DNA from: a virus
Direction: 5' to 3' (one strand)
IMG/VR virus record: IMGVR_UViG_3300025598_000023
Location: 1-64,000 of that record
DNA: 64,000 nucleotides
Numbering within the stretch: the first letter of the stretch is position 1; each line of letters starts with the position of its first letter. This document shows positions 3,501-45,400 of the stretch, piece by piece. The notes beneath the pieces are model-generated. The model did no database searches and had not been told where the DNA came from. It saw only the letters and a program-made list of their open reading frames with translations. A program made the position numbers and the translations under genes.

Positions 3501-5209
3501 GTATTTGGTGTAAGGGTAATAGTTCCACTACCAGCACTTTCATTAATAGTTCCACCAGTTGGTAGTCTAATATTACCGCTTGACAATATTTGTATATTTC
3601 CAGTAGCTACAGTATTTGCAACATAATAAGCACTTACTTGTGTATTGCCATAGGTTGCTGGTAACCCTGTAAGATAATAAGCATTTCCTGTAAAGTAAGC
3701 TGCACTAATATTACCAGCAGCAGTAATATTACCGCTTGCTATGATATTATTTGCATATTCAGTTAAAGAAATAGTTTCATAGTGTGCTGTTGTGATATTA
3801 CCAACAACAATTAAATTTCCTCCAACTGTTAAGTTTCCGCTTGTTGCAACATTTTGAAAGGATATAAGAGCATTAGTGTTTAAGAAAGACGCAACTGCTG
3901 CATTGCTGTAAGCAGTTGATTGTATACTTCCATCTGGAAAATATAGATTACCAGTTGTATCAAATTCCCATTGGGTTGGACTTCCAGATGTATTTGAAAT
4001 TAGATAAATTGGACCAGCGGTATAAACTGACGCTTGAGAACTGCTGCCTTCTGCTACATAAAAACCATTGATATCATTCTTACTATTGGCAGTCATTTCA
4101 ATGTAGTTTTGACCTTCTACATTATTATAAGTGAATATCTTCTGATGTCCACCAAAGTTTAAGTTACCGTTTAGAGAAATATTTCCATTTACAACAAACC
4201 CATTAGCTGCTTTCCAACGTCCGACTTCATTGCTTGGACTATCACCGCCAATAGCAAATACAATGTCATTAGGTTGATCAATTGTCATAATGACAAGTTT
4301 ACCACCTTCAACAAGCAAGTAACCGTCATTTGGACCATCAAGTCCTCCACCACCAGTAAAAGTGCTACTATTAATACCAAAATCAATATAATGAGTATAA
4401 TCTGTTCCATTATCGGCAGTAACAACTACGTCACCACTTGCGTTACTTCCACTGTTTTTGTTTTGTAATAAAAATTGTGTATAATTGTTTATATTATCAA
4501 CATATGTAAGTTTTGCATTTAAAGGAGTAAAGTTTGGCAATAAACCTAGTGTTGTATTATTTGGAAAAGTAACATTATTTCCTGTTACATATACATTTTG
4601 AAAAAATTGCGTATAACCATTTACTGTATTATAACCATTTGAATATGTTGTTAAACTAGGTAATCCATTTGAAGTAATGATTATTGCAGTTTGTGAGCCT
4701 ACATTCGCATGAAGCAACCCAGATGTATTATATAAACTTGAAAAAATATAGCCAGAATAATCATTAGGGCTAATTTCAATAAAACTATTTGCACTTATTG
4801 TATTACCACTTATTACTCCGTTTGATACTATTGTTGAATCTGCATATAAACGATCAGCATTTATTCTTGATGCAGTAATTCTTAAATTTGATGTATTTGT
4901 TAATTTGTCTGGATTAATCCAAGTATCAATATGCAGATTACCTAAAAAATTAGACTCATTTACCCACAAATTATTCCATTTAAATGCACTTGTTCCCAAA
5001 GTGTAAGCACTGTCTAATGCAGGACTAACATTAGTAAATTCTAAATTAAGATTAGCACTTACGTTTGCAATTTCGTGTCCACCAGGCGTGACACCATCCA
5101 TAATATAAATTTTGTCTGTTGTTTCGTCGATGACTAATTCACCATTGTGACCAACAAGATTTCCAATTTGTAGTGGGCTTATCTTACCAAAATAACGACG
5201 CAGTGCCAT
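524..5209 (-). CDS. Large repeat-rich tail fibre protein
   Basis: This 1561-residue protein probably forms a long receptor-binding fibre. Residues ~10-50 contain 'GELVIDETTDKIYIMDGVTPGG', the pattern of the N-terminal domain found in major tropism determinant and other phage fibre proteins. Most of the rest is low-complexity Gly/Asn/Ser/Thr beta-structure, including eight copies of a YxNxxVAxYLPTYxGN-like repeat and several 'FxxNGxAYSSGGGG' segments. The C-terminus is a short beta-rich tip, and no intramolecular chaperone peptidase domain was recognised. The ATG at 5209 has a late-promoter motif at 5230-5235 and a TTAGGA ribosome-binding site. It heads a unit with the LamG protein downstream. 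Receptor specificity cannot be read from the sequence. Confidence 0.85.
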   Translation of the reverse strand: MALRRYFGKISPLQIGNLVGHNGELVIDETTDKIYIMDGVTPGGHEIANVSANLNLEFTNVSPALDSAYTLGTSAFKWNNLWVNESNFLGNLHIDTWINPDKLTNTSNLRITASRINADRLYADSTIVSNGVISGNTISANSFIEISPNDYSGYIFSSLYNTSGLLHANVGSQTAIIITSNGLPSLTTYSNGYNTVNGYTQFFQNVYVTGNNVTFPNNTTLGLLPNFTPLNAKLTYVDNINNYTQFLLQNKNSGSNASGDVVVTADNGTDYTHYIDFGINSSTFTGGGGLDGPNDGYLLVEGGKLVIMTIDQPNDIVFAIGGDSPSNEVGRWKAANGFVVNGNISLNGNLNFGGHQKIFTYNNVEGQNYIEMTANSKNDINGFYVAEGSSSQASVYTAGPIYLISNTSGSPTQWEFDTTGNLYFPDGSIQSTAYSNAAVASFLNTNALISFQNVATSGNLTVGGNLIVVGNITTAHYETISLTEYANNIIASGNITAAGNISAAYFTGNAYYLTGLPATYGNTQVSAYYVANTVATGNIQILSSGNIRLPTGGTINESAGSGTITLTPNTAASALAGVAIGGSGYLLAANNTRNAVLNYGSINGQMGIYQLNVYGNQQNAIINGGAANNYGNIGGISSFFGNLFVSNVYSPNYNYPNGVSILSGIGGNYGNTQVSAYLANGLKAGNISISPTSWIDFVNADTNWRMGYGINSYSKTTTLTSIDIVVGQGSVGPDGFTIGQTGGQSIFELSGYTRNAYFSNGITAVGTANVGNVITTNGIFWSNGVAYSSGGGGSNYGNSNVASYLPTYSGNSNAAFFTGNGYYLTGISVGSTYSNSNVAAYLPTYNGNIGNIITGNLIPKANASYYLGNNTLYWANVYANNFLAATQIATPKLQFTVGGAQILEDNPLDLAIIGTYQISVKPNGTQQYTFASDGSFSGPGGTIAWANGAIGGNVIATGVYWSNGVAFSSGGGGSYGNTQVAAYLPTYAGNVNASFYLGNGYYLTGVGGGSTYSNTNVAAYLTTYSGNLSAGNIAITSGASGNISGTGYVVAGNMVANTNMYANGFYWYNNNATLASTITGTFSNSNVASYLPTYTGNISVGNINLTVGNANIVAGNSTNMTVRTVGVYNVLTISGIAGGYNSPPYTNQSLTGGNGSGMTASYSSVGGYVTQASLVVTNPGTGYKNGDVLTLPGGLGSTVILTNYNPNVLSTKVYNWTFSQYDGNITVPGNIIMPSNSAILGDFTNSTFGYRTVFQTINANATTGVYALPNGTSTGASWQAINNSNANNASKIMITTNGTTDVQLVSGVNGSGTYLPLSFYNNGAAQMVIYPNGNVYMSNANPITTTGNINVGNLLATGNVIASNINVTSNLTYGNVSTSGNVTAGYLITTGSGGNITGANYVIASNFITTGSYGNITGANVITANTFIGTSATISGNLYSPSQTGKSAAIVAQNTAVTMDNIKVQWLNNGSSNANQLQIGSVSGTPSILYTYVFEAGTGGTPSGGSSSTSLSTTYANIGNPSGTAGDLYMVTATVGTNAYRVSAITGSGYSNNLISIERLV
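1918..3915 (-). repeat. Eight dispersed copies of a YxNxxVAxYLPTYxGN-type fibre repeat
   Basis: Within the fibre gene the encoded motif Tyr/Phe-x-Asn-x-x-Val-(Ala/Ser)-x-Tyr/Phe-Leu recurs eight times, with five copies continuing into a PTYxGN or TTYxGN tail. The copies are similar at DNA level, often beside 'GNGYYLTG' and GGGG segments. They look like repeated shaft modules that could recombine and change fibre length. Confidence 0.75.
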
Positions 5210-9763: not shown

Positions 9764-11554
9764 TTATGCGCCACCTAATGCCGCACCCGCTGTAGCACCA
9801 CCTTGACCACCACCTGCTCCACCAGTTGGACTTGGTGCTCCACCAGCACCAACTTCTCCACCAGGCACGGCTGGTGGTATACCAGGACCACCAATACCAG
9901 GTCCACCTTGTGCTGCTTGAATATCACTTATTGTTTCTAAATCGGTGCCAATAGCGCCTGGTGTAACACCAACACTGCGCAAATCTACACCTTGCAGCCT
10001 ACTAGTCGGTTCTTCTGTGCCACGCTCTTCATGCCACATCTTTTCATTTTCAGCCATTTCCATTTCACTCAAACCAAGATATTTCTTTAACATAAAACGT
10101 TTTGCCAAGAAATCAGTTTGTTGTAATTGTGTAAAGGCACTGATACGACTTTGATTTAATTCTAATTCACGATATGCAGCAAAGTTTTGCGGTTCAGTAA
10201 AGCGCAATTCAAACAAGCCATTATCTAGATTAAAACCTTTATGTTTAAGATACAACTTAAACTCTGTGTCAAATTTAGGACTGATATAACGTTGCAATCG
10301 CTTGCAATATTCATTAAAACGATATTCTTGAATTAATGCGGTAGTTACTTTACCATCTGTAAATGCACGATCACTATCTTCTGGTCCAGTTGGTAGGTAG
10401 CTGCTTGGAATACGCAAGCTACGATACATTTTATTTTGGAAGTAACGCAAATCATCAATTTCACCAAGATTTTGACCACCCGGTAAAACTTCTACAGATG
10501 AACCACGACCTTCAGCAGTTTGTGGAAAGAAGAAATCTTCGTTCATACTCATTGGATTATATGAAGCATCCATTAAATTTTGACCGCCACCGCTTTGTGT
10601 TGGAATACGGCGTTGGTTAATTTCGTTCTTAACACGCTCAACAAATTGCATAGCAAGATGCGCTGGCATATTACCAACATCAATCTTAAACATACGGCGT
10701 TCTGGTGCACGACTAATACGATAAATTAGAATAGCATCTTCAAGTAATTCTTTTTGCTTGAATACCTTAAAGATTGCTTCAAAAAGACTTACACCAAACG
10801 GCCAGTTGACATCTAACCCTTCTGTTAAACTTAAGTGAACGATATGTTCTGCTGCTACAGGGAACTCATTATTACCAGCACCAAAACGTGTATTTGGAGA
10901 AAATAATTCACCACCAGCAGTATAAGTTCTGCTACCACCCATATAAGGCGCAAAAGCATAACTGTCATTTGGACCTGGTGGACGTGTAATTGTGCTGTTC
11001 TGCAAATTAGGATTAAGGTCACGAATATAATAAATTTCTGGTTCTTTACCTTTGGATTCATTAACAATAATCTTGCTAACACGATTCATTTCAGTCCAAA
11101 ACCACTTGTATGTTTCTGGATCACGAACAAATACTTGGTCACCATATTTTAATGTGTTTCGGAACATTTTAAAGATACGTTGCTCAAAATCTTGTAGTTT
11201 ATACCAAGAAACAAGCTGTTCTTTTAAAATCATCATTTCATTGTTAGTGGCTTCTTCATGGAAATGAATCGTAAAAGCAGTTTTAGTTTCATCATTAATT
11301 TGTGTGCAAAATTCACTCAAAATATCAAGTGCACTGTTGGCTTCACTATCTAAATCCATATTCTCGTATTGAGTATAACGGTCAATACGGTTAGGGTGAC
11401 CACTATAAACATCTGGCAACATACTTTGATAGTTACGATATGCAGCATTTGCTTGTGAACCAAGATAATTGTAGCTGCTGTAATCTGTTACGCTGCCGTT
11501 AACTGGACTATAAGCCCCATCACTAACGATACGCCAATGTTTTTTCCAACCCAT
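9764..11554 (-). CDS. 20: Portal protein (gp20-like)
   Basis: This 596-residue protein forms the dodecameric portal through which DNA enters the head. Recognisable parts are 'DLDSEANSALDILSEFCTQ' near residue 70, the 'YKWFWTEMN' region, 'KELLEDAILIYRISRAPERRMFKIDVGNMP' near residue 275, and 'YFQNKMYRSLRIPSSYLP' with 'DRAFTDGKVTTALIQEYRFNEYCKRLQ' near 375-420. All are strongly conserved in gp20, which is also used as a marker gene for these phages. The last ~50 residues are Gly/Pro/Ala-rich and probably disordered. The length is close to T4 gp20 (524) plus this tail. A TAAATA motif precedes the gene. Confidence 0.95.
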   Translation of the reverse strand: MGWKKHWRIVSDGAYSPVNGSVTDYSSYNYLGSQANAAYRNYQSMLPDVYSGHPNRIDRYTQYENMDLDSEANSALDILSEFCTQINDETKTAFTIHFHEEATNNEMMILKEQLVSWYKLQDFEQRIFKMFRNTLKYGDQVFVRDPETYKWFWTEMNRVSKIIVNESKGKEPEIYYIRDLNPNLQNSTITRPPGPNDSYAFAPYMGGSRTYTAGGELFSPNTRFGAGNNEFPVAAEHIVHLSLTEGLDVNWPFGVSLFEAIFKVFKQKELLEDAILIYRISRAPERRMFKIDVGNMPAHLAMQFVERVKNEINQRRIPTQSGGGQNLMDASYNPMSMNEDFFFPQTAEGRGSSVEVLPGGQNLGEIDDLRYFQNKMYRSLRIPSSYLPTGPEDSDRAFTDGKVTTALIQEYRFNEYCKRLQRYISPKFDTEFKLYLKHKGFNLDNGLFELRFTEPQNFAAYRELELNQSRISAFTQLQQTDFLAKRFMLKKYLGLSEMEMAENEKMWHEERGTEEPTSRLQGVDLRSVGVTPGAIGTDLETISDIQAAQGGPGIGGPGIPPAVPGGEVGAGGAPSPTGGAGGGQGGATAGAALGGA

Positions 11555-11602: not shown

Positions 11603-13876
11603 TTATGCGACACGTGCAGCAGTGCGTTCTGTATATGTTGCAACAGTTTTAGTTGCATCAATTAACTGATCTACTTTATTAATAAGTGTTTGCATTAAGT
11701 CATTTTGCTGACTTGCTGCATATTGTTGAGTACGAACAAGTTCTTGTGACTCAGCACTTGTGCCACTTGCTCTTACAAAATCAGTAAATGCTTCTGCATT
11801 AATATTGTCAGGCAGCGGAACAACTGCTTCATTGCCATGTAGTGTAGCAGGAAAACCACTTTTTGGACCACTTACTATACCACCATCTGCTAGCATTGGT
11901 CCAACAAATGTATAATCTGTTCTGTTTTCAATGTCTGCTTGTTGACGTGCTCGTTCAACATTAAATGCTTGCATATCAGCAAAACCAGCAGTTTTTAAAA
12001 TTTTGTCAATAGATGTATCAGTTACAATAGCAAGATTTTTAATCTGTGCTTCTGTAAGAGTTAATAGTTTAGCATGTGCTTGTTCAAGTTCGCTGCTTCC
12101 TAAACCAAAAACACCTCGTTCTGTGCTTAACTGTTTGTCTTCTCTTGCTTTTTGAGCAATTCCTTTTGTATAATCATCAAATTGTTCGCCATTTCCAAGC
12201 ACAGCCTTGGCTAATCGCTCCATGCCACTAGCAAGTAATCCTGTAACATCATTAAGTTTATTAACAACAGTAAGATAAGCACTTAAACTATCAAATACAG
12301 ATTGTTGAACTTTAATTTGATTTTGCATACCTAATTGTTCTGCTTCTACTAATTTTTTAGTAGTTGGGTCTTCTGTAATAGCAGCCTGCGCTACACTTTG
12401 ACGTAATTTTTCAATTTCTTCTGGTGTTTTATTAAGAAGAGCAATAGATTTTGCTAAAGTTTCAGCTTGCGCTGCAAATGCACTGCCTTCTGTTGAAGCA
12501 GCTAAACCAAAGTCACGCAAACCTTGAATTTGATTTCTTGCCTCTGTTCCATACTCTTCTAGTATTCCTAAACCTTGACCAGTTTGTACAGCACCTTGTT
12601 CAGCAGTATTAAACAACGATCTTGCCATTTTTTCAAATGCTGGTGCTTGTGAAGCAATAATTGCACTTTGTTCAGTGAATACATTGCCACCACTTTTAAC
12701 CATTTCTTTGAACATTTGTTGTGATGCTTCTGGCAGTGCACGTAGTTCATTTTCAATTGCAGCACGTTGTTCAGGTGTTTTTGTAGCCAAATATTGTTGA
12801 TAAGCTAAATCACTTGCATCTTGGTCAGCTTTTGCTTGTAGAGTTTTAGCATCTTGACCAGTTAAATCTGCAATAATTCGTAGATTTTGTGCGTATTGCG
12901 CAGTTGCACGTGCTACTTGTTCATCTGTTGCAGCACCACTACGGCGCATACGAGCACCAACATTAGCTATCAAACCTGGTAATTCTTCAAGCCCAAAACC
13001 TAATGCTTGGAATTGTGAAGGATTAATAAACTTGCTTACACTACCTATTCGCTTTGCACCTTCTGTCATACTTCCACCAAAAAGTATAACTGCATCACGA
13101 TTTTCACTTAACGCTTTACCAAATAAATCTGTTGTTAAACCAGCAGCAAATGCTGCATTTTTCAAACCACTTACACCGTCTGCAAATATAGCACCAGCAT
13201 TACTTGCTTCTTTAAAGGAACTGCTTATAGATTCTACTTGTTTATTCATAAAATCAAGTATCTTACTACCAGCATCACCAACTGCTTGAACAATTGGTCC
13301 AAGTATTGCACCAGCACCTGGTATCACACTAACCAAACCACTTGCTGCACTTGCAATTGTTTTAAACGTAAAAGAGGCATTGCTTAAAGCAGCTTGTAAT
13401 CCTGTATTGCTACTATTATAAGCAGCAGTTAAGTTACCAATAACGGTTGTAACAGCCGCCACAGTTGTTTTAGTAATTTTATTATTAATAAAAAATTCTA
13501 CTTTTGCTGCTGCATCTTCTAAACTTATAGTTGCATCAGACATAAATTTGACAAATTTACTGCTATCAAGTGATGCAATTTTTAATGAATCATTAATATC
13601 ATTCAATCTTATTGTATATTCTTCTTCGGTCATTAACCTTTCTTTATACTGACGGCGCAAAGATTCAGTTTCACGTTCACGCTGTGTTAGCGCAACTTTT
13701 AAAGCATCATTTAGTTTTTTAGTATCTGCTTTTGTTCCTTTGGACACAGAATCAGCATAAGCAGTAGTTTTATTATATAAAATAGACATTGCTTTATCAA
13801 AAGCACCTGCTCTCTCATTAAGCACTGCTAGTTGTTCTGCAAATTTTTTTAACTGTTCTTCTGTATTTTCAGCCAT
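11603..13876 (-). CDS. Tail tape-measure protein
   Basis: The protein has 757 residues from the ATG at 13876; an upstream in-frame start at 13921 would overlap the divergent gene's promoter. The N-terminal ~130 residues are coiled coil. A Gly/Ala-rich hydrophobic region at ~170-240 ('ASGLVSVIPGAGAILGPI') resembles the membrane-active stretches of tape-measure proteins. Long helices follow, and the C-terminus has 'ADGGIVSGPKSGFPATLHGNEAVVPLP', a signature often seen at the ends of these proteins. It sets tail length inside the tube and is ejected on infection. It is longer than T4 gp29 (590). Its divergent neighbour is the gp26-like hub gene. The identification rests on architecture, not on clear gp29 identity. 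Confidence 0.8.
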   Translation of the reverse strand: MAENTEEQLKKFAEQLAVLNERAGAFDKAMSILYNKTTAYADSVSKGTKADTKKLNDALKVALTQRERETESLRRQYKERLMTEEEYTIRLNDINDSLKIASLDSSKFVKFMSDATISLEDAAAKVEFFINNKITKTTVAAVTTVIGNLTAAYNSSNTGLQAALSNASFTFKTIASAASGLVSVIPGAGAILGPIVQAVGDAGSKILDFMNKQVESISSSFKEASNAGAIFADGVSGLKNAAFAAGLTTDLFGKALSENRDAVILFGGSMTEGAKRIGSVSKFINPSQFQALGFGLEELPGLIANVGARMRRSGAATDEQVARATAQYAQNLRIIADLTGQDAKTLQAKADQDASDLAYQQYLATKTPEQRAAIENELRALPEASQQMFKEMVKSGGNVFTEQSAIIASQAPAFEKMARSLFNTAEQGAVQTGQGLGILEEYGTEARNQIQGLRDFGLAASTEGSAFAAQAETLAKSIALLNKTPEEIEKLRQSVAQAAITEDPTTKKLVEAEQLGMQNQIKVQQSVFDSLSAYLTVVNKLNDVTGLLASGMERLAKAVLGNGEQFDDYTKGIAQKAREDKQLSTERGVFGLGSSELEQAHAKLLTLTEAQIKNLAIVTDTSIDKILKTAGFADMQAFNVERARQQADIENRTDYTFVGPMLADGGIVSGPKSGFPATLHGNEAVVPLPDNINAEAFTDFVRASGTSAESQELVRTQQYAASQQNDLMQTLINKVDQLIDATKTVATYTERTAARVA

Positions 13877-13925: not shown

Positions 13926-14771
13926 ATGCAAAAATCAACTAATCCACTTGCTTCGCATTTTCGTCAACCAGCGATTTATCTTAAACTTCCAAGCGGTGGC
14001 AGATATTGGGCACCTGGCAGCTTAAACTTGCCAGCAAATGGTGAGATTGGTGTTATGCCAATGACTACTAAAGATGAGATTTTATTAAGAACTCCCGATG
14101 CTCTTATGAATGGTGATGGTGTAGTTAAGGTTATTGAGAGTTGCTGCCCTAATATTACTAATGCTTGGGGTATGCCTACTATTGACGCAGATAGCATTTT
14201 AATTGCTATTCGTATTGCAACATATGGCAGTGCTATGGATATTGACAGCAGTTGTCCTAAATGTAATCACGAAAATAGACACCAAATTCCATTAAATGAT
14301 GTGCTTATGCGAGTTCGTGCACCTGATTATTCACCAGTATTGAATATAGATGGGCTACAAATACGTTTTAAACCGATTAATTATCTACAATCTACAAAAA
14401 ACAATATCATTGATTTTGAAAATCAAAAACTTGCAGAAGTAATTCTTAATGAAAATTTAGACGAAGAAACAAAAAAAGCACAATTTGATGTTCATGTTCA
14501 AAAAATTGTAGATGCAAGCACTAATATTCTAGTAATGGGCACAGCAAGTATTACAACAGAAAATGGTGATTTAGTTACCGAACCTGAATATATTCATGAA
14601 TTTTATACAAATACTACCAACAAAAACATAAACTTGATCAAAGATAAACTGCAATCAATTAATGAAGTTGCTAATTTACCACCTGTAAAAGTTCAATGTG
14701 AAGGTTGTGAAAGTGAATATAGTGTAGGAGTCACGTTTGATTACGCAAATTTTTTCGGTCCACCATCCTAA
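13926..14771 (+). CDS. 26: Baseplate hub subunit (gp26-like) with zinc-binding CxxC motifs
   Basis: The protein has 281 residues. The ATG at 13926 follows a TATAGGTAG leader; the frame extends upstream to 13881 but that part overlaps the promoters. The N-terminal 'KLPSGGRYW', then 'PMTTKDEILLRTPDALMNGDGVVKVIESCCP', matches the T4 gp26 hub family. Two CxxC pairs ('CPKC' near residue 113 and 'CEGC' near 260) probably form a zinc ribbon. The reading frame ends just after a T TTT TTC slippery heptamer (14750-14756). A -1 slip there would continue into the next gene. It probably acts in hub assembly or as a tape-measure chaperone, given its place beside the tape-measure gene. Confidence 0.82.
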   Translation: MQKSTNPLASHFRQPAIYLKLPSGGRYWAPGSLNLPANGEIGVMPMTTKDEILLRTPDALMNGDGVVKVIESCCPNITNAWGMPTIDADSILIAIRIATYGSAMDIDSSCPKCNHENRHQIPLNDVLMRVRAPDYSPVLNIDGLQIRFKPINYLQSTKNNIIDFENQKLAEVILNENLDEETKKAQFDVHVQKIVDASTNILVMGTASITTENGDLVTEPEYIHEFYTNTTNKNINLIKDKLQSINEVANLPPVKVQCEGCESEYSVGVTFDYANFFGPPS

Positions 14772-14804
14772 AACTCTCACTTGAAGAGACAATGGCACTG
14801 GTGG
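14750..14804 (+). promoter_or_regulatory. Putative programmed -1 ribosomal frameshift site
   Basis: The gp26-like frame reads AAT TTT TTC, giving the X-XXY-YYZ heptamer T TTT TTC at 14750-14756. In the -1 frame the sequence stays open into the gp51-like ORF. Downstream, CCACCA (14760-14765) can pair with TGGTGG (14799-14804) around an inner CTCT/AGAG hairpin (14774-14788), a possible stimulatory structure about 3 nt after the heptamer. The -1 product would have about 353 residues. Confidence 0.55.
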
Positions 14805-14986
14805 AACGATACGAAAAAGACGTAAAAAATATTAAACAAAATATTTTAAGGATCGTTTGGTATATGCGTGGTGGGGTTACTTATTCAGAAGCAATGGATA
14901 TGAGTATTCAGGAACGTGAAATAATTAGTAAAATTATTGACGAAAATTTAGAAACTACAAAAAAGATAAATTTACCTTTTTTCTAA
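14792..14986 (+). CDS. 51: Baseplate hub assembly protein (gp51-like), possibly made as a gp26 fusion
   Basis: The protein has 64 residues from the ATG at 14792. 'RIVWYMRGGVTYSEAMDMS' followed by 'EREIISKIIDENLETTKK' matches the short gp51-type hub assembly family (WYMRGG-x-(S/T)Y signature). The frame is open upstream to 14741, through 'LKLSLEETMALVERY', which looks like genuine protein. No convincing ribosome-binding site precedes the ATG. These points, and the slippery heptamer at 14750, suggest it is translated mainly by -1 frameshifting from the gp26-like gene, as tail assembly chaperone pairs are in many phages. Its 3' end overlaps the convergent membrane-protein gene by 4 nt. Confidence 0.75.
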   Translation: MALVERYEKDVKNIKQNILRIVWYMRGGVTYSEAMDMSIQEREIISKIIDENLETTKKINLPFF

Positions 14987-15783: not shown

Positions 15784-15812
15784 ATAGTATATATGTAAAT
15801 TGCCTTTGTCAA
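15784..15812 (-). promoter_or_regulatory. Sigma-70-like promoter for the structured RNA
   Basis: TTGACA (15807-15812) and TACTAT (15784-15789) are separated by exactly 17 nt on the minus strand. The expected transcription start is near 15777. The -35 box overlaps the 3' end of the PP-loop gene. Confidence 0.7.
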
Positions 15813-16927
15813 TAACTTTTTTGAAAATCTTTAACAAAATATGCTTTGCTTATAAGTGTTGCATTTAATTCTGTGCTATTATTGATTTTTTTAATATTTT
15901 CTAGTCCATTCATATAAGTTTTGTATACTTTAATTTCATTGTTTTTTGCATAATTTAATAATTTTAAACTATCTGGACTATCAGTATTATTTGTATGTAA
16001 AAACTTTTGAGAACCAATAACGCTGCTTATATCGCTATGATATAAAGGATATCTACCCATTGCTATATTCCAAGCTGAATAATATTTTGTATATGGACCA
16101 TTTTTACTCATATCTTTGCCTTGAATTAAATGTACAAGTTCTGGTGAAAATTCAGGCAGAGTTTCAAACCATTTACATACATTCCATGCTTGTTTTATGA
16201 ATAATTCTGGTAAATCTTCACTTAAATAAAAACTTTCTTGTTTACTACCAACAATATCAGACAAGTTATCATCGAGAAAAAAACAATACCATTTATTATC
16301 ATGTAGATATACTTTTGCTTTTTCGTGACCCATTATGTCAGCACGTGTGGTATATTTGTTTAAATTTTTGATAATATTTTCATGATAATTAGTAAGGTAA
16401 TATTTGGTTGTTTTATTAAACCTTAAAGTGCTACCAATATGATATATCCAATAATCACCCATACTATCATAAAAATTTATTATATCAGAGTAATGGATTG
16501 GAATAATATTGATTTTTATATTTGGAAAATAATTTTTTTTGATGGTCTTTGCGTGTTCAACAGCAAATTTATATTCAGGATCATCATATAGTGATGTCCT
16601 GTCAATTATTACTAATTCATCTAACAATATATGATTATCTACAAAAGTTTTTAATATAGTGTGACTATCATAACCACCGCTATACCAAAGAGACACATAT
16701 GAATAACGTTCTCTTATTTGTTCACATCTTATTTTAACTAGCTCTTGCCAAGTTTGTTGCGGCTCAATGTGCCAACTTGACTTATTCCATGTATTCTCCA
16801 TCCATTTGAAGCTAATCTTGGAAACATCACCAGAACTTAATTCAATAGCGCGTATTTTACTGTAGGTTTTTTCTCCATTTACATCATAATAACTATCTTC
16901 ATGGTTATACACTTGTGTTTTATTCAT
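15809..16927 (-). CDS. PP-loop ATP pyrophosphatase (asparagine-synthase-like)
   Basis: The protein has 372 residues. 'WYSGGYDSHTIL' (residues 81-92) carries the SGGxDS PP-loop that binds ATP in adenylating N-type ATP pyrophosphatases (asparagine synthetase, tRNA thiolation and amidotransferase enzymes). The surrounding order, a helix ending 'RYSYVSL' then the loop, fits a Rossmann-like HUP domain. No N-terminal glutaminase Cys2 domain is present, so it should use ammonia or another nucleophile. The substrate is unknown. It is the last gene of a six-gene minus-strand operon, 1 nt after a 2OG oxygenase, so it may act on the same product as the oxygenases. It could ligate or activate a carboxylate or a base. 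Confidence 0.72.
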   Translation of the reverse strand: MNKTQVYNHEDSYYDVNGEKTYSKIRAIELSSGDVSKISFKWMENTWNKSSWHIEPQQTWQELVKIRCEQIRERYSYVSLWYSGGYDSHTILKTFVDNHILLDELVIIDRTSLYDDPEYKFAVEHAKTIKKNYFPNIKINIIPIHYSDIINFYDSMGDYWIYHIGSTLRFNKTTKYYLTNYHENIIKNLNKYTTRADIMGHEKAKVYLHDNKWYCFFLDDNLSDIVGSKQESFYLSEDLPELFIKQAWNVCKWFETLPEFSPELVHLIQGKDMSKNGPYTKYYSAWNIAMGRYPLYHSDISSVIGSQKFLHTNNTDSPDSLKLLNYAKNNEIKVYKTYMNGLENIKKINNSTELNATLISKAYFVKDFQKSY

Positions 16928-16928
16928 T

Positions 16929-17513
16929 TTAATCCAAAGTTAAACCTTCAATACTATCTAATCCAATTTGGATACTAATTCTTTTCTTAGGTATATTTCG
17001 CACACCATGTAATATTGCTGAATTAAGAACACACCACTTGCGTAATGGAATTTTTACGCTACAAATTTCTGTAAGAACATCGTGGTTAAAAACTCTATGA
17101 CCTTTGTGTCTTACAATTGGATAACCTTTTTCTTGATAAAACATTGTTTCGTGGTCATCACCACCACTTTCTAATAGGTAAAGTAGTGTATACAAACGTG
17201 ATGAATCGCAGTGTGCTCCTTTAAAATCACGCACATCTTGCTCACTTGTTTCGCTTTCTGCAACCCTAACATTGACTACACTTTTATCAGTTATGTTTTT
17301 GTATACCCATTCTTTGATCTCTTCATCAAGATGATATGATGTAAAAGCAGTATTTTTTAGTTGAATACCATTAATCGTGATGATTTCTTGGTTAATTTTC
17401 TCCCAATCAATTGTAGTATCAATGTTTCTTTTAATACTTTTATATGCTCGTTCTATAAAATCTTCTGGAACATCTGGTAAATTTTTTGGAAACTTATAAA
17501 ACCATTCATTCAT
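16929..17513 (-). CDS. Fe(II)/2-oxoglutarate-dependent oxygenase, paralogue 1
   Basis: The 194-residue protein has a double-stranded beta-helix signature. The iron ligands are His101-x-Asp103 ('GAHCDSS') and His169 ('SAILHGV'), with Arg178 placed to bind 2-oxoglutarate. The N-terminal 'W-x-Y-K-F-P...LPDVPEDF' segment is shared with two paralogues in this island (17506-18108 and 20697-21278). It is smaller than TauD-type enzymes (~280) and closer to compact 2OG-FeII oxygenases seen in T4-like cyanophages. It overlaps the upstream paralogue by 8 nt, so the two are translationally coupled. The substrate is unknown; small molecule, protein or nucleic acid are all possible. Confidence 0.78.
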   Translation of the reverse strand: MNEWFYKFPKNLPDVPEDFIERAYKSIKRNIDTTIDWEKINQEIITINGIQLKNTAFTSYHLDEEIKEWVYKNITDKSVVNVRVAESETSEQDVRDFKGAHCDSSRLYTLLYLLESGGDDHETMFYQEKGYPIVRHKGHRVFNHDVLTEICSVKIPLRKWCVLNSAILHGVRNIPKKRISIQIGLDSIEGLTLD

Positions 17514-18108
17514 TTTTAAACTCCTTGATATCTTTAACGCTTACAAAACCAACCTGTAATGCAATCCGTGGTTCTGGAATATTAATTACGCTGTGCAAAA
17601 TGCGTGAATTTAATATAATCCACTTTTTAAGAGGAATTTGTATTCTGCCTAGTTCTTCCAACTTATCGGTTTCTAATGCTGTTACACAATTTTCTCTTAT
17701 GATTGGTTTATTTTTTTCTTTATAAAAAACAGTGGCATGATCTGGTCCGCCGCTTTCAAGCAACCAAATTAATACATAATTGCGAGTAGTATCAGTGTGT
17801 GGACCACGCCAATCACGTGGATCATCGGGATTAAAATATGTCTTTGATGATTTTACATTAGCTATTCCTGTTTTAGCAACATTGTCATATACCCATTTTT
17901 TCATTTCTTTTTCGGTTTCATATTGGAAAAAAGCAACTGATTTTTTCAATTCACCGTTTTTAATAAAAGGTGCTTGTAACGTTGCATTAAAATCAACATA
18001 TTCAATAACTTCTTTATTAACACTATCATAAATCATTTTTTCTAATTCATCAGGCAAATCTGGTAAATCTGGAAATTTCCATAGCCATTCTTCTATTTGA
18101 TCACTCAT
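17506..18108 (-). CDS. Fe(II)/2-oxoglutarate-dependent oxygenase, paralogue 2
   Basis: The 200-residue protein has His104-x-Asp106 ('GPHTDTT') and His172 ('SRILHSV') as iron ligands and Arg181 as the probable 2-oxoglutarate ligand. The N-terminus 'EWLWKFPDLPDLPDEL' matches the signature of its paralogues. The 'LLESGGPDHATVFYKEKN' centre aligns with paralogue 1. It follows the ABC permease gene by 9 nt with an AGGAG ribosome-binding site. This places an oxygenase directly after the SBP-ATPase-permease genes, the same functional order as tauABCD. The paralogy and coupling to 16929-17513 suggest two related or sequential oxidations, or a heteromer. All ligands are intact, so it is probably active. 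Confidence 0.78.
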   Translation of the reverse strand: MSDQIEEWLWKFPDLPDLPDELEKMIYDSVNKEVIEYVDFNATLQAPFIKNGELKKSVAFFQYETEKEMKKWVYDNVAKTGIANVKSSKTYFNPDDPRDWRGPHTDTTRNYVLIWLLESGGPDHATVFYKEKNKPIIRENCVTALETDKLEELGRIQIPLKKWIILNSRILHSVINIPEPRIALQVGFVSVKDIKEFKNE

Positions 18109-18117
18109 TGTATTCTC

Positions 18118-18876
18118 CTACCATTTTAATTTTTGTGACACTTTGTCGAATAATTTTGATATTACATAACCATTAATTGCAATAATACATACTATAACAT
18201 ACATTTTATCAATATCCATAGTAGATTTTACATCTATCATGTATGTTCCTAAACCATGATATCCACCAATGTTACCAAATACTACTTCAAGGGAAATCAG
18301 TGTTCGCCACATATATGCCCAACTTGTGCTACAAAGTGAAATGATAATTGGTGCAGTGGCTGGCAAATATACATGAATAAAACTTTGTTTTATACCCCAA
18401 TTTAAATTCTGCACATGCTTTTCCCATGTCAGCTTTATTGTGTCAAAAGCAGATAATATCTGGTAACAAGTTGCAAAATATACACTAAAAACAACTACTA
18501 CAATTACAACATTGCTTGATAATCCAAAAATTAAAACTAAAAAAGGGATTAGGACAAAACTTGGTAGCGGAGTAAAATATCCACAATAACATTCTATTAT
18601 TTTGCGAAAAAATGGAAATATCCAACATAAACATATTGTTATAGCAATACTAATACATAAAATTGCCCACGCAGTAAACAACATTATGATAGTGTCGAAA
18701 TAAGTTATCCATAGCAATTTTGTTTGTAGCATATTAATTGCAGTTGTTGTTATTGTAATAATACTTGGAAAAACTAATGTTTCATTAATGGCAAAACAAA
18801 TGCACTGCCAAGCAACTATTAATAAACCAATGGCTATAATATTAATGATGTAGTTTTTTGATAAAATCTTTTTCAT
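18118..18876 (-). CDS. ABC importer permease (NitT/TauA/SsuC-type)
   Basis: This 252-residue inner-membrane protein has about six hydrophobic segments spread through its length. The 'LNWGIKQSFIHVYLPATAPIII' stretch near residue 160 is the EAA-type cytoplasmic loop that docks on the ATPase. The 'PLPSFVLIPFLVLIFG' segment is typical of the SsuC/TauC/ThiX permease family. It overlaps the ATPase gene by 35 nt and is followed 9 nt later by an oxygenase. With the neighbouring ATPase and binding protein it would form a complete importer. Complete ABC import systems are very unusual in phages. The substrate is not readable, but the family imports sulfonates, nitrate or thiamine precursors. Confidence 0.85.
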   Translation of the reverse strand: MKKILSKNYIINIIAIGLLIVAWQCICFAINETLVFPSIITITTTAINMLQTKLLWITYFDTIIMLFTAWAILCISIAITICLCWIFPFFRKIIECYCGYFTPLPSFVLIPFLVLIFGLSSNVVIVVVVFSVYFATCYQILSAFDTIKLTWEKHVQNLNWGIKQSFIHVYLPATAPIIISLCSTSWAYMWRTLISLEVVFGNIGGYHGLGTYMIDVKSTMDIDKMYVIVCIIAINGYVISKLFDKVSQKLKW

Positions 18877-19462
18877 CTATATCTTTTGGTAATTTCGTTA
18901 ATCCATTGTATGAAAGTAATAGTATTTCATCTGCGATTTGCTTTGCTTCGTGTATATTGTGTGTAATATATAAAACATTTAAGTTAAGTTGTATAATCTT
19001 TTCCTTAAAGTCACTTAATACATTATAACTGGTCATTGCATCAAGACCGCTAAGCGGTTCGTCACATAATATAGTTTCTGCACCACTGCATATTGCTCGT
19101 ATCAAAGTAAATCTTTGACGTTGACCACCACTTATACTATTTGGTTTTTTATCAATTAAATCTGTTAATTTCCATTCAGAAGCTATATCATACCAATTAT
19201 TTTTGCATGTAATTTCCATATTTTTCTTTACACTATACCATGGAAATAATTGATGACTATCTTGAAATACAGTAAAAATATTATTGCTTTTGATATAACC
19301 AGTATATTGCATCACACCACGAATAGCATTAATTATACTGGTTTTACCCACACCACTACTACCCATAATAACTGTAATAGTTTGCGGCTTTAATTCAATA
19401 CTGATGGGAGAAAATAAACTTCTCCCATCAACACTGATTGTAAGGTTTTTAACAGCGAGCAT
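18842..19462 (-). CDS. ABC importer ATPase
   Basis: The 206-residue nucleotide-binding protein has all motifs intact: Walker A GSSGVGKT (34-41), a Q-loop Gln near 67 ('VFQDSH'), the signature SISGGQRQR (109-117), Walker B ETILCDEP (129-136), a D-loop ('SGLDAM') and H-loop His168 ('ITHN'). It is shorter than bacterial SsuB/TauB (~250), with a minimal C-terminus. It should power the permease encoded at 18118-18876. Its start overlaps the stop of the binding-protein gene by 1 nt (TAATG), so translation is coupled. Conservation of every catalytic motif argues for selection on function, not for decay. Confidence 0.9.
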   Translation of the reverse strand: MLAVKNLTISVDGRSLFSPISIELKPQTITVIMGSSGVGKTSIINAIRGVMQYTGYIKSNNIFTVFQDSHQLFPWYSVKKNMEITCKNNWYDIASEWKLTDLIDKKPNSISGGQRQRFTLIRAICSGAETILCDEPLSGLDAMTSYNVLSDFKEKIIQLNLNVLYITHNIHEAKQIADEILLLSYNGLTKLPKDIDEKDFIKKLHH

Positions 19463-20469
19463 TAATTAATTTTTACCAATTTAGTATCAAACACTTTTTG
19501 AGAATCAGGCATCTTGTCAGGATCAACTTTAAGTGTTCCGCTCGTATACATTAATCTAAGTGTAGAAAGAGCAGCTTTTAAACTTGTATCGTAGGTGTCA
19601 TTATTCTCTTTCTTCATTTTCAGCACATCTTCTGGTGTAATATCTTCTACTTTGTCATTATTCAAGTATACTTTAATAGCAGATACAGGGTCTTTAGTAT
19701 ACTCTTTGATTGCCTCACTTTGTGCTTCAATCCATGCACGTGCTAATTCTGGATTTTCTTTTGCCCACTTTGCTGTAGTATAGCTTATGTTTGCAAAACC
19801 AAAACTTTTTACGTTGTCAGGTTTAGATACGATATGCGCTTTTTTCATAGCAACAATAGTATTTTGAAGCGGTGAACCAAGAAAAGCACAAGCTAATTTT
19901 GGCGTATCTGCTGTCATAAGTTGAAATGCTTCTTCTCTTGTTAGAATAACAAGGTTGTTATTGAGTTTTTCGGTTTGATTAGCACCGACCTCTGCTGCCA
20001 AATACTGTCGTAACATAAGTTGTTCACCAGCATTTAACGATTTTACCATAATTTTATCGTTTGGTCCTATGTCAGTAATCTTTTTAATATTAGGATCAGC
20101 ACATACTAACCAAAAATCAAATGTCTCCCATCCAGAAAGCAATACTAACTTGCTTGGGTCTTTTTCTAAAATAGGTGAATAACCGTTAATACCACCAATA
20201 ACAATATCAAGACGCCCTAATAATAAACTATCATTGGCTGTTGAAGCATTGGTAACTTCATCTAAAACTACTTTTAAATCTTTAATTCCGTGCTTGGCAG
20301 CAAATTTTGGAAGAAGTTCAACAGTTTTATAAAGTAGCGGTTGAATAGTAGCAAGTTTACTTGTTTTGCTTATATGAATTTCTGTAGCAAAAACTCCGCA
20401 TGTGGTTGCAATTAATGTAAAAATTGTCAATAATGCAATTTTAGTATTAGAAATAAACCTGTTAATCAT
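19462..20469 (-). CDS. Periplasmic substrate-binding protein of ABC importer (NMT1/SsuA/TauA-like)
   Basis: The protein has 335 residues from the ATG at 20469, which has AAGGAG 7 nt upstream; the frame extends further to 20514 but that part lies in the leader hairpin. Residues ~1-28 are a Sec signal peptide with a likely cut after 'GVFA'. The mature part has the two-lobed NMT1-like pattern: 'LLGRLDIVIGGINGYSPIL', 'LVLLSGWETFDFWLVCADP', 'DKIMVKSLNAGEQLMLRQYLAAEVG', and a C-terminal 'WAKENPELARAWIEAQSEAIKEY'. This family delivers sulfonates, nitrate, thiamine precursors and similar small molecules. It is the first gene of the operon and follows a structured leader with a terminator. The ligand is unknown. 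Confidence 0.87.
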   Translation of the reverse strand: MINRFISNTKIALLTIFTLIATTCGVFATEIHISKTSKLATIQPLLYKTVELLPKFAAKHGIKDLKVVLDEVTNASTANDSLLLGRLDIVIGGINGYSPILEKDPSKLVLLSGWETFDFWLVCADPNIKKITDIGPNDKIMVKSLNAGEQLMLRQYLAAEVGANQTEKLNNNLVILTREEAFQLMTADTPKLACAFLGSPLQNTIVAMKKAHIVSKPDNVKSFGFANISYTTAKWAKENPELARAWIEAQSEAIKEYTKDPVSAIKVYLNNDKVEDITPEDVLKMKKENNDTYDTSLKAALSTLRLMYTSGTLKVDPDKMPDSQKVFDTKLVKIN

Positions 20470-20502
20470 ATTTTTCTCCTTTCTTACGTTAACAGATAAC
20501 AC

Positions 20503-20527
20503 AAAAAACATCAATATAAATTGATGT
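20503..20527 (-). terminator. Intrinsic terminator between leader RNA and importer operon
   Basis: On the minus strand ACATCAA (20527-20521) and TTGATGT (20514-20508) form a 7-bp stem with a 6-nt loop, followed directly by a run of six T. It lies 34 nt before the substrate-binding protein start, so read-through would be needed to express the operon from the upstream promoter. Confidence 0.75.
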
Positions 20528-39455: not shown

Positions 39456-42400
39456 ATGGCAAAACGTAAAAGTGAAAACTTTTTACCACAAGTTTTTAGA
39501 ACTTTAGGAAATAAGCGTTTCTTAAATGCCACAATGGACCCACTTATTCAGGAACCAAGCCTGAAAAAGATGTATGGTTATATTGGTCAACAAGACCAAA
39601 GTCCTGTGTATAGTACAAGTGATTATTATATAAACGAGAATGACAGCTATAGTCAATTCTACCAACTTGAACCAGGCGTAGTAATTAAGAAACGTCAGTT
39701 AGGCACAAACACATACAAAGTTAGTAATGTTTATAACTATGTGGATTTATTAAATCAAATTTCTGCTGATGGTGGTCTTAATAATAATCATGACCGTCTT
39801 TTTACAAATCGTTATTATAGTTATAACGGATTTGTAGACCTTGATAAACTTACAAACTATCGTCAATATTATTGGGTGCCTGGCGGTCCTATGCCTGTTG
39901 ATGTTACTGCTGATTTAACACCAACACAAAAAGATTTTTATTTTCATCGTGTAAGTTATGTTGCTAACAATCAAACTGAATTACAAAGTGCTGCACTTGG
40001 TGAAACTGGTTATAGTGTTGATGGATACAACAATGTTGTTAATCCAACTATCACTCTGGTTCGTGGTGGCAGTTATAATTTTTATGTAAATCAAACAACA
40101 CAATTTTGGATTCAAACAGAAATTGAAACAAGTGGTACAAGCACTGTCCAAAGTAATATTTCTACTCGTGATGTTCTTGGTGTATCAAATAATGGAACTG
40201 AAAGTGGTATTGTTACTTTTACTGTTCCACTAAGCACTGCACAGGATTATCTAATAAATTATCCTACTTTGGGACAAACTGTAGATATTATCGTTGATGA
40301 TATTACTTACGAAGAGCTACAAGGCGTTAACTATGATAACTTTGTTTTACAATACAGTTTAGATGGTGTGCGTAGTTTTGATGGCAAATATGTAGTCTTG
40401 ACAAGTAATACAGGCTGGGCGGATGTTGACTCTAGCCAATGGCACGGTGTTTGGCGCATTAATGTCGATCCAGTAACACGATTAATGAATTTAACTTACA
40501 TTGCTGCTTGGGATAACCTTTATAAAGTATTTGTGAATCAAGGTGATGTGTATGGTCACGTTTATGCTTATAAAAACAACGTTGGTGTAGTCACTAAGTT
40601 TCCAACTCTTAGCGCAGCACAAAATGTGCTTTATTATGTTGATGCAGAAAATCAACTAGTTTATGGAACTATACGTTTAGTTGACCCTACACCAAATAGT
40701 TTGCTTAATGTAAATGACATTATAGGTAAAACAAATTACACAAGCCCAAATGGTGTGCAATTTACAACAGGACTAAAAGTTAAATTTACTGGTCTTGTTG
40801 TGCCAAGTGAGTATCAAGGCAATGAATATATTGTAGAAGGTGTTGGCAGTAGTATTAAACTTGTCAAATACAGTGATTTGGTAACACCAGAAACTATTAA
40901 TACTAATTTGGGAAGTAGTTTTGGTAATAGTCGAGGTTTTGATGCTGATGGCACTGGATTTGATGGAACCACTAATAGTCCAGAAATTAAAGATTATATC
41001 ACAATTAATCGTGCAAGCGTAGACGGAAATAGTTGGAGTCGCAACAATCGTTGGTTCCATCGTGATGTGCTACAAGCAGCAGCAAATTACAACAACACAA
41101 ACTATGCATTTGATAGCAATCAACAAGCAAAGCGTCCAATTGTAGAATTTTTACCAAACCTTAAACTTTATAATTATGGTCAAAATTATCGTGGTTATAT
41201 TACTTGTTTTGATAATGTAACAACAAGTGCCTTTTCGCAAATTGAAGGTGTCAATAGTTATGCTGTGCCTAAAGGCACATATGATAGTAAAAACAATAGA
41301 TTCGTTTATAACAGTGATGGTATACAACTATTAAATGGTGTAACAGTTGTTTTTATTAATGATATTGATCCAACTGTTCGTGCTACTCTATATCAAGTTC
41401 AAAATAACAAAACTCGCACTGCTGCAACATATAATCCTATTACTATAGGTTATTCAGGTGCAGATTCAACTCAACTTTTTATTAATGAATTAGGCAATAT
41501 TACTTTGGGTCAACATGTTACTGGCACTGGTATTGCTCAAAATACTACTGTTTTAAATGTTGATACCGTTAATAATGTTGTTACAATCAGTAATCCTATC
41601 ACAAGCGAAATACCAATTGGTCAAACAATTTATTTTGATAATAGTTTTGACCAAATTCATCTGGTTCCAATTAAAACATTTAGCGATGGTGATACTGTTG
41701 TTGCTATGGAAGGTGTTAATAATCAAGGCAATATGTATTATTACGCAAATGGCACTTGGACACTTGCACAAATTCGCAATAGTCGTCCACAGGCTCCGCT
41801 ATTTGATATCGTGGATGCAAACAGTATAAGTTTAAGTGACCAAACAGCTTATCCAAGCAGTAATTTTACTGGTAGCCAATTATTTGGATATGCAGTCAAT
41901 TTAACTCCAAATGCAAAACGTGATAGTGAATTGGGTTTTGCTCTTGTTTATAAAAGTATAGGTAATTTGGGAGATATTGTATTCCAAAATTACTATGCAA
42001 CCGACACATTTGATTATAATTTAAATCAAATTGACACTGTAAAAAATGTAAACACAGGCTATGCTGCTGTAATTAATAGTTATAATAATTATAGTTTTGC
42101 TAATGGTTGGTTCCGTGTTAGCGATAAAACAAAACAATACATCACCAAAACTTATAATGCTACAGTTATACAACTTAATAATTTTGATTTGGGTGTTGTT
42201 TATAACAATAGCTACTATGAAAACAATATCTTTGTTTATGTTAATGGTGTTTTGCAATCACGTGACAAATATACGCTACAAACAAGTTCTATAACAAGTG
42301 TTGTTAAATTTACAAATGATGTAGTGATAGGTGATCGCATATTTGTTAAAATATATGGCACAAGTGCACAGTATAAGCAAACTTACACTATGCCTCGCAA

Positions 42401-45400
42401 TTTAACTAACAACAGTGAAAATTCAGAATTTACAACAATTACACTAGGCCAGGTTCGCAATCATTTGATTGAAGTTGGTAATAATCTACTTAATTTAGTG
42501 GGTGAACCAGCAGGCGCTAATAATTTCCGTGATTTGAATTTTAACTATGTTGGTGGAAAATTACTACAACATAGCTCAAGTTTGCGACCAGCGGCATTGC
42601 TGTTTGCAAATAGTGATGTTGATCCTGTTCAAATTATACGCTTCGCAGCAGATAGCTATACAAATTTTAAAAATCAGTTGCTTGATTACATAAACAATCG
42701 TGAATTTGCTGATCCAACTAACTATGCAGCTTGCTTAGATTCCGTTCTCAAAGAGTTTGTAAATTTAAGCATTATCAGTTCACCTTTTTATTATACCGAT
42801 ATGGCTGCAAGTGGAAATGATTATTTAAAAAACACATACACCGTTAACAATACAACATATCGCAGTTATAATTTAACCCAAGATTTTAGTGATAATAACA
42901 AAGGTTATCGTTCACTATTAGTATACTTAAATGGTGTTCTGTTATTGAAAAACATTGATTATGTAATTAACTCAAAAGTAATTACTATCAATGATAGCGT
43001 CACTATTTCACGCAATGATGTTATTGAAGTTGTAGAGTATAGCAGCACTGCAGGTTGTAATATACCAGCTACACCAACAAAATTAGGCATTTATCCTAAA
43101 TTTACTCCACAGATTACTGTAGATGATAGCTATGTTGTGCCTACTACTGTTATCATTGGACATGATGGCAGTATTACCACTGCTTATGGTGACTACCGTG
43201 ATAATATTTTATTAGAATTTGAAAAACGTGTATACAACAATATCACAGTCACCTATGCCAATAATACTGATTACGATTTGCCAAGTGTTGTGCCTGGTGC
43301 TTTTCGCAAAACTGATTATAGCCTTACTGAATGGACACAATTACTTACACCTGCATATTTGCGTTGGAGCACTATCAACAATGTAAATGTATTTGATAAT
43401 ACAACTACTACTGGAAATGAGTTTACTTGGAATTACAGTAGTGGTGTAGATAAGTTGTTTTACAATCCAGTGCCAGGTTACTGGCGTGGAATTTATAGCT
43501 ATTTTTATGATACTGATAGACCACATACACATCCATGGGAAATGTTGGGTTTTGCAGAAAAACCAACTTGGTGGGAATTGCGTTATGGACCAGCACCATA
43601 TAGTAGTGCTAACAATGTTTTATGGACTGATCTTGAATTAGGTTTTGTATATGGCGGAAATCCAAATTTAAGTTATATTAACAGTCGTTACAGCCGTCCT
43701 GGTCTAAGTCAAATTATTCCAGTAGATGAACATGGTAATCTTGTGCCGCCAAACTTAAGTGTCATTACAAATTATGATGTTGCTACAGCAAGTCAAAATT
43801 GGCAAGTAGGTGACCAAAGCCCACAAGAAACTGCTTGGCGTCGTAGTGTAGATTTTCCATTTGCTGTCATGATTGCATGGTGTTTAGCAAGACCAGCAGA
43901 ATGGTGTGCGTTAAAATATAATACTCGTGATTTGACATATGTTGCAGCACTAAATCAAATAATCAATACAAAGACAAATAATCGCACATTTGATTTTACT
44001 GCTACAAGTGCAAATGATTATATACCAGGTTACAATGTATGGTTGCGTGATTATCTTACAAGCAATAACCTTGATATAATTGAAAACTGGAATAATGTCG
44101 TTAACAACAGCACATTCAATCTTGTTTACAAGATGGGTGCTTATACTGATAAAAGTTATCTAACAGTTGTTGCAGATCAAGTTAGTCCACAAAGCACAAA
44201 TAGTAGTGTTATTATTCCACAAGAAAATTACCAAGTTAAAGTTACTAAAAGTGCGCCTGTAGCACGTGCAGTATATAGTGCGGTTGTTGTTCAAAAAGTA
44301 ACTAATGGTTTCCAAATTACTGGATTTGACAAAGAACGTCCTTACTTCTTGACAATACCAAGTCGTGTCAGCAGTAACAATTATGGAATTGCAGTTGGAA
44401 ATCAAACAGCCATTATCTATCTTGATGCAGCAGAAGGTATTGTTACATATCCTTATGGCACTATCTTTAATACTACACAACAAGTAGTAGACTTCTTAAT
44501 AAGTTATGGTCGTTATCTTGAATCACAAGGATTTAGTTTTAATGAATTTTTAAGTGATAATTCAACTAAAAGCGATTGGACACTTGCTGCAAAAGAATTT
44601 TTATTCTGGGAACAACAAGATTGGGGTGATAGCACAGTTATAAGTTTAACCCCAACTGGCACCAGTGTTAATTTTAATAGTCTGTTTGGTATCGTTGACA
44701 CTATCACTAACACAAACAATTACACTAAAATTATCAATAGTGATAATGTCACGCTTACTGGTCGTGATTATCGTGTGTATCGTGATGACAACAACTTTAG
44801 TGTAACGCTGAAAAATGCGCAAAAAGGTATACACTTACTGGATATTGCTATTGTTCAGTATGAGCATACACTTATTTTTGATAATAACACTGTGTTTAAT
44901 GATATTCTTTATGATGAACAAACAGGCAGTCGTCAATTCCGACTGCGTATTGATGGCAGCAAAACACAAGATTGGAATGGTTCACTTTATGCGCCTGGTT
45001 TCTTTGTTAATGTAAGCGATATACCACAATGGGCTGCTTATACTGATTATTACACAGGCGATATTGTTCTATTCAAAGACAAGTATTATGCAGCACAAAA
45101 GTTTATACCAGGCACACAAAAGTTTGCAACCAGTGACTGGTATCTCATTAACGGCGATTTACTGTCTAAAAACCTAATTCCAAATATGGCAAGTGGTGCT
45201 GCACAGTTTATTAATTTCCATGATCCTGATGCAACTGACTTAAACAGTGCAGCAGATGCACTAAGCAAGAGTGAAACTGGATTTAGTCCACGCCAATACT
45301 TCACAGATTTGGGATTAGATAATACAAGCCAATATAAATTTTATCTTGGTATGATAGCTCAAAAAGGAACACAAGCTGTTCTTAATGCTTATCTACGCAA

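Follow-up and report, generated by a model that had tools for sequence, protein, structure and literature searches.

A predicted -1 ribosomal frameshift in the tail-assembly chaperone gene of an uncultured T4-related virus

The tail-assembly chaperone locus

The window analysed here, 64,000 nucleotides long, corresponds to positions 1 to 64,000 of the IMG/VR virus record IMGVR_UViG_3300025598_000023, which comprises 111,324 bases. Its plus strand carries a gene for a protein resembling gp26 of T4 (Table 1), which contains two CxxC motifs and matches both Pfam family PF12322 (E-value 8e-20, 71.9 bits at a cut-off of 24.5) and phrog_150 (E-value 8e-22). Within the 111 kb record, which is possibly a fragment, this gene is the only one to match PF12322 (n = 1); the search thus reveals a single chaperone copy and no separate long paralogue.

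The gene ends with AAT TTT TTC GGT CCA CCA TCC TAA and, as a preceding sequence-only reading had noticed, harbours the slippery heptamer T TTT TTC in the correct frame close to its stop. The distance of seven codons to the stop given there holds if the count runs from TTT through the stop codon, since TTC itself is followed by four sense codons and TAA. Elsewhere in the long open reading frames of the window, T TTT TTC in this phase is rare (3 per 21,625 codons). The -1 frame opens, as had been stated, directly into the protein containing the motif WYMRGG, and the predicted fusion has a length of about 353 amino acids.

Table 1. Features of the chaperone locus, in window coordinates
Feature	Position	Strand	Remarks
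T4-like portal protein gp20	9764..11554	-	PF07230, E-value 1.5e-105
Putative tape-measure gene, divergently transcribed neighbour	11603..13876	-	Assigned by position only
gp26-like gene, short tail-assembly chaperone (TAC-N)	13926..14771	+	ATG at 13926, TAA at 14769-14771, 281 aa
Whole open -1 frame including overlap with the 0 frame	14741..14986	+	81 codons, open to 14983; stop at 14984-14986
Second legal heptamer A AAT TTT, overlapping upstream	14747..14753	+	Sole one retained in lineages L022, L025 and L027
Slippery heptamer T TTT TTC	14750..14756	+	Phased for tandem -1 slip; 41 of 46 lineages
-1 extension (TAC-C, gp51-like position)	14756..14986	+	76 aa after the slip, plus stop
5' arm of predicted stem, 2-3 nt past the heptamer	14759..14765	+	Window fold z -3.5
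0-frame stop terminating the short form	14769..14771	+	Sequence
ATG within the -1 frame, candidate for an independent start	14792..14794	+	Weak Shine-Dalgarno (SD) pairing, unconserved
3' arm of predicted stem	14799..14805	+	Pairs with 14759..14765

The chaperone gene had been described as lying beside the tape-measure gene. A candidate for this gene does adjoin it, on the opposite strand. The Pfam search with this neighbour gave no match, and its putative identity follows from position: the same slot is labelled tape measure in the jumbo phage Erwinia phage SNUABM_47, while in RaK2 it holds a product similar to a tape measure.

On its other side the chaperone gene is adjoined by three open reading frames (15809-18108, minus strand; 372, 194 and 200 amino acids), none of which scores above the Pfam cut-off and the latter two of which resemble each other by eye. 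The window further contains an ABC-transporter set (18118-20514, minus strand) consisting of a permease (PF00528), an ATPase (PF00005) and a weakly matching NMT1-like binding protein, as well as an open reading frame of 4,665 codons (39456-53453, plus strand).

The heptamer and the -1 frame among relatives

We read the end of the corresponding gene in 134 relatives (38 from viral contigs, 12 from jumbo-phage records, 80 from cyanophage-type contigs, and others) as well as in further named phages. With lineages separated at less than 80% protein identity, the relatives collapse to 46. T TTT TTC is present in 41 of them, a tally which includes LR756511 (L052), whose gene end is unreliable and whose heptamer, located at -70 nt, is not firm. 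Four lineages carry a legal variant (T TTT TTG in one, A AAT TTT in three) and one, Pseudomonas phage Cygsa01, carries none. T TTT TTC is found in freshwater phages, in the jumbo phages 121Q, RaK2 and GAP32, in cyanophages and in phiAS5; beyond the 46 lineages it is present in KVP40, ZPAH1 and S-RSM4, and Melnitz-1 has T TTT TTT. Columns 1-8, which cover the heptamer region, are invariant in the alignment of the window's own clade (A1) and in a second alignment (A2).

Under local Phe codon use, the succession of TTT and TTC yields a probability product of about 1e-30, a value which overstates the case for slippage since both frames, coding for FF (0 frame) and FFR (-1 frame), restrict the choice of bases. 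An FFR constraint, however, itself demands that the -1 frame be translated from the slip site onward. One might suppose that in an AT-rich genome two genes overlap by chance at an ending with Phe-Phe, as FF is a conserved feature of the protein and TTT makes up 88% of the local Phe codons. The second Phe codon, however, is TTC against this local bias, and the pattern persists at TTT usages from 27% to 93% and at gp26 identities down to about 28%. Contradicted by the conservation across the 46 lineages, chance overlap was rejected; we consider its probability next to negligible.

A shift of frame could also arise from slippage of RNA polymerase, rather than of the ribosome, on the run of T. The gene ends of L030-L031 and L035-L037 contain nine-T runs holding both T TTT TTT and T TTT TTC, and show little downstream structure. 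The long runs in L030 and L035 would suit polymerase slippage, but in the great majority of lineages the run consists of six T bounded by C, the phase invariably fits a tandem tRNA slip, and the RNA that follows has structure typical of ribosomal shifting, making a transcriptional origin of the frame change highly improbable.

Past the 0-frame stop, the window differs from its relative L002 at 10 first, 7 second and 38 third positions of the -1 codons, and dN of the extension amounts to 0.17 with dS near saturation. With substitutions thus biased to third positions and dN far below dS, the -1 open reading frame evolves as a protein, in agreement with the protein-like appearance ascribed to it before. 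A -1 stop between slip site and extension, specified in advance as evidence against frameshifting, occurs in none of the single-gene relatives read. For the most part, heptamer and -1 stop are 72-79 codons apart in the jumbo phages and the wider group, and 60-68 codons apart in the cyanophage types. The first ATG downstream of the heptamer, by contrast, is found at distances ranging from 2 to more than 200 nt, depending on the lineage, and in Paride ATG, GTG and TTG are all absent as start codons between the heptamer and the -1 stop. A steady length from heptamer to stop, combined with wandering starts and the startless extension of Paride, points to a fusion rather than to a protein with a start of its own.

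Independent translation of the -1 frame, or coupled re-initiation, from the ATG at 14792 nevertheless deserves consideration. An in-frame ATG occupies this position in the window and in L002, L006 and L007, cyanophages have one 8 nt past the heptamer, and stop/start overlaps are seen in Atu_ph07, Phosso, 121Q and Cygsa01. At the equivalent place in L003 and L004, however, the ATG is missing. The window's ATG, which had been said to lack a ribosome-binding site, does possess one, albeit a weak one: its SD pairing energy is -1.7 kcal/mol, compared to a median of -4.0 for the long open reading frames of the window and 0.1 for random sites. A separate start also leaves unexplained why the heptamer is conserved, as well as the -1 residues upstream of any start. 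In view of the wandering or absent starts and the weak SD we rejected independent initiation as the main explanation and regard it as improbable; some free extension could still be produced from the weak ATG. In Cygsa01 (L057), AGC ATT TTC ACC replaces the heptamer around position 3807 and stop and start codons overlap as TAATG; this phage may have switched to coupled translation.

RNA structure downstream of the heptamer

Structures stimulating -1 frameshifting from a downstream position are common in bacteria, though not obligatory. In the window, CCACCA (14760-14765) pairs with TGGTGG (14799-14804), which confirms the 6-bp stem pointed out earlier as beginning 3 nt past the heptamer. Across 45 lineages, the 75 nt past the heptamer fold with a mean z of -1.51 relative to dinucleotide shuffles, compared to -0.38 for three control segments within the gene (P 3e-6 in favour of the RNA downstream of the heptamer). 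An Rfam search at the locus returned no family.

In the A1 alignment the outer stem is paired in 96.4% of cells, and a slide by one to three columns destroys this pairing. The pairs 10-56 and 15-51 co-vary with both sides changed, one co-varying pair (C-G for U-A) being seen in the window alone. As 27 of 500 shuffles reach an equally high value and independent changes are few, covariation within the clade is, by itself, modest to weak evidence for the stem. Cyanophages have a different stem of seven pairs, paired in 96.7% of cells, for which the shuffle result is partly an effect of relatedness, and in many distant lineages differing stems begin a few nucleotides past the heptamer. We consider it likely that these downstream stems act as frameshift stimulators. 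More tentatively, and at somewhat less than even probability, T4-related phages may have kept the heptamer fixed while repeatedly rebuilding the stem, each time with another sequence but at a similar distance, giving each lineage its own ratio of short to long chaperone; CCACYA/TRGTGG would then be the version of the window's clade.

Relation to T4 genes 26 and 51 and to known frameshifts

In T4, as the sequence-only reading stated, 26 and 51 are separate genes. T4 gp26 (208 aa) matches positions 14-235 of the 282 of phrog_150, whereas gp51 (249 aa) matches positions 13-280 and thereby covers the additional C-terminal part; the two proteins also align with each other. This coverage identifies the two T4 genes as a short and a long version, paralogous to the two predicted forms of the window and, like the window's gp26-like gene, members of phrog_150. 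The window, however, holds a single gene, while T4 has two divergent ones with neither heptamer nor frameshift: its gene 26 ends with GAG TTC TTT GAG, in which Phe-Phe is retained and the slip site is lost. Hub proteins, the term originally applied to the window's pair, is less fitting than short and long tail-assembly chaperones of the lambda G and GT type.

The description of the extension as gp51-like is borne out by position and architecture, but not by direct profile similarity, as hhalign of the extension of the window's clade against the tail of T4 gp51 yields no significant match (E-value 0.11). The cyanophage extension does align with the T4-type tail (E-value 1.9e-7), the window-type extension aligns with that of the RaK2 type (E-value 8e-13), and a profile pooling the extensions of all groups matches gp51 proteins and not gp26. 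Within Straboviridae, the family of T4 and of Aeromonas phage 31, phiAS5, ZPAH1 and KVP40 have kept the heptamer, whereas Aeromonas phage 31 is of the two-gene type with the heptamer absent. From the presence of both types we infer that the switch from a frameshift to two genes took place inside this family.

Such frameshifting is already known in related phages, and the window is a well-supported new example. PRFect (PMC10885494) and the Adele paper (PMC12846349) both cite Vladimirov, Gautam and Davidson (2022, Virology 566:9-15) and, as these citing papers put it, that work describes chaperone genes of a short and a long kind in some T4-like phages, as well as poly-T frameshift signals in T4-like TAC-N genes. 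On this second-hand account, the window shares with the T4-like TAC-N/TAC-NC system the 26/51 family, a poly-T site near the end of TAC-N and a -1 extension; its uncultured group presumably lies outside the set treated there, and the stem 3' of the heptamer, with its co-varying pairs, is a result of the present analysis. The abstract by Vladimirov, Gautam and Davidson reportedly names T4 26 and 51 as the two forms and places frameshifting in several T4-like groups. A conserved open -1 frame and a T-rich slippery site, GTTTTT, are likewise found in the chaperone genes of Vandenendeviridae and Andersonviridae (phage Adele, PMC12846349), which are other phage families with a slippery core differing from that of the window.

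Given the conservation among relatives, it is very probable that the window phage employs -1 ribosomal frameshifting, as the sequence-only reading proposed, and produces from a single gene both a short (281 aa) and a long (about 353 aa) tail-assembly chaperone. The majority of ribosomes would terminate at the 0-frame stop and release the short form. In a minority, the two Phe tRNAs on T TTT TTC would slip by -1 and re-pair on TTT TTT, probably assisted by the stem just 3' of the heptamer; these ribosomes would read on through CGG TCC ACC and complete the long chaperone with its additional domain of 76 residues. If lambda gpG/gpGT is a guide, the short form may coat the tape-measure protein and the extension may bring in tail-tube subunits, with neither form entering the virion. 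The likeness is one of logic: a short chaperone accompanied by a rarer -1 long form, both predicted in the window, next to a tape-measure gene, of which the window has a putative counterpart. In lambda, ratio and function were proven experimentally, whereas for the window slippage and chaperone function are predicted, and its tape-measure candidate, unlike that of lambda, is encoded on the opposite strand.

For the annotation of such genomes, it follows that the two parts should be joined. The public records of the E. coli jumbo phage 121Q and of KVP40 give two genes despite the frameshift signal, and those of RaK2 (L041) and Paride (L043) entirely omit the extension, which is conserved at 4813-5040 and 4825-5058, respectively. 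The comparison also points to laboratory phages in which slippage, and what the stem contributes to it, could be measured. In 2016, the lambda G/GT frameshift was described as general in long-tailed phages, with T4 listed as an exception (PMC5009743); against this listing, the signal is present in nearly every T4-related lineage sampled, and it is T4 that is the exception, using two genes.
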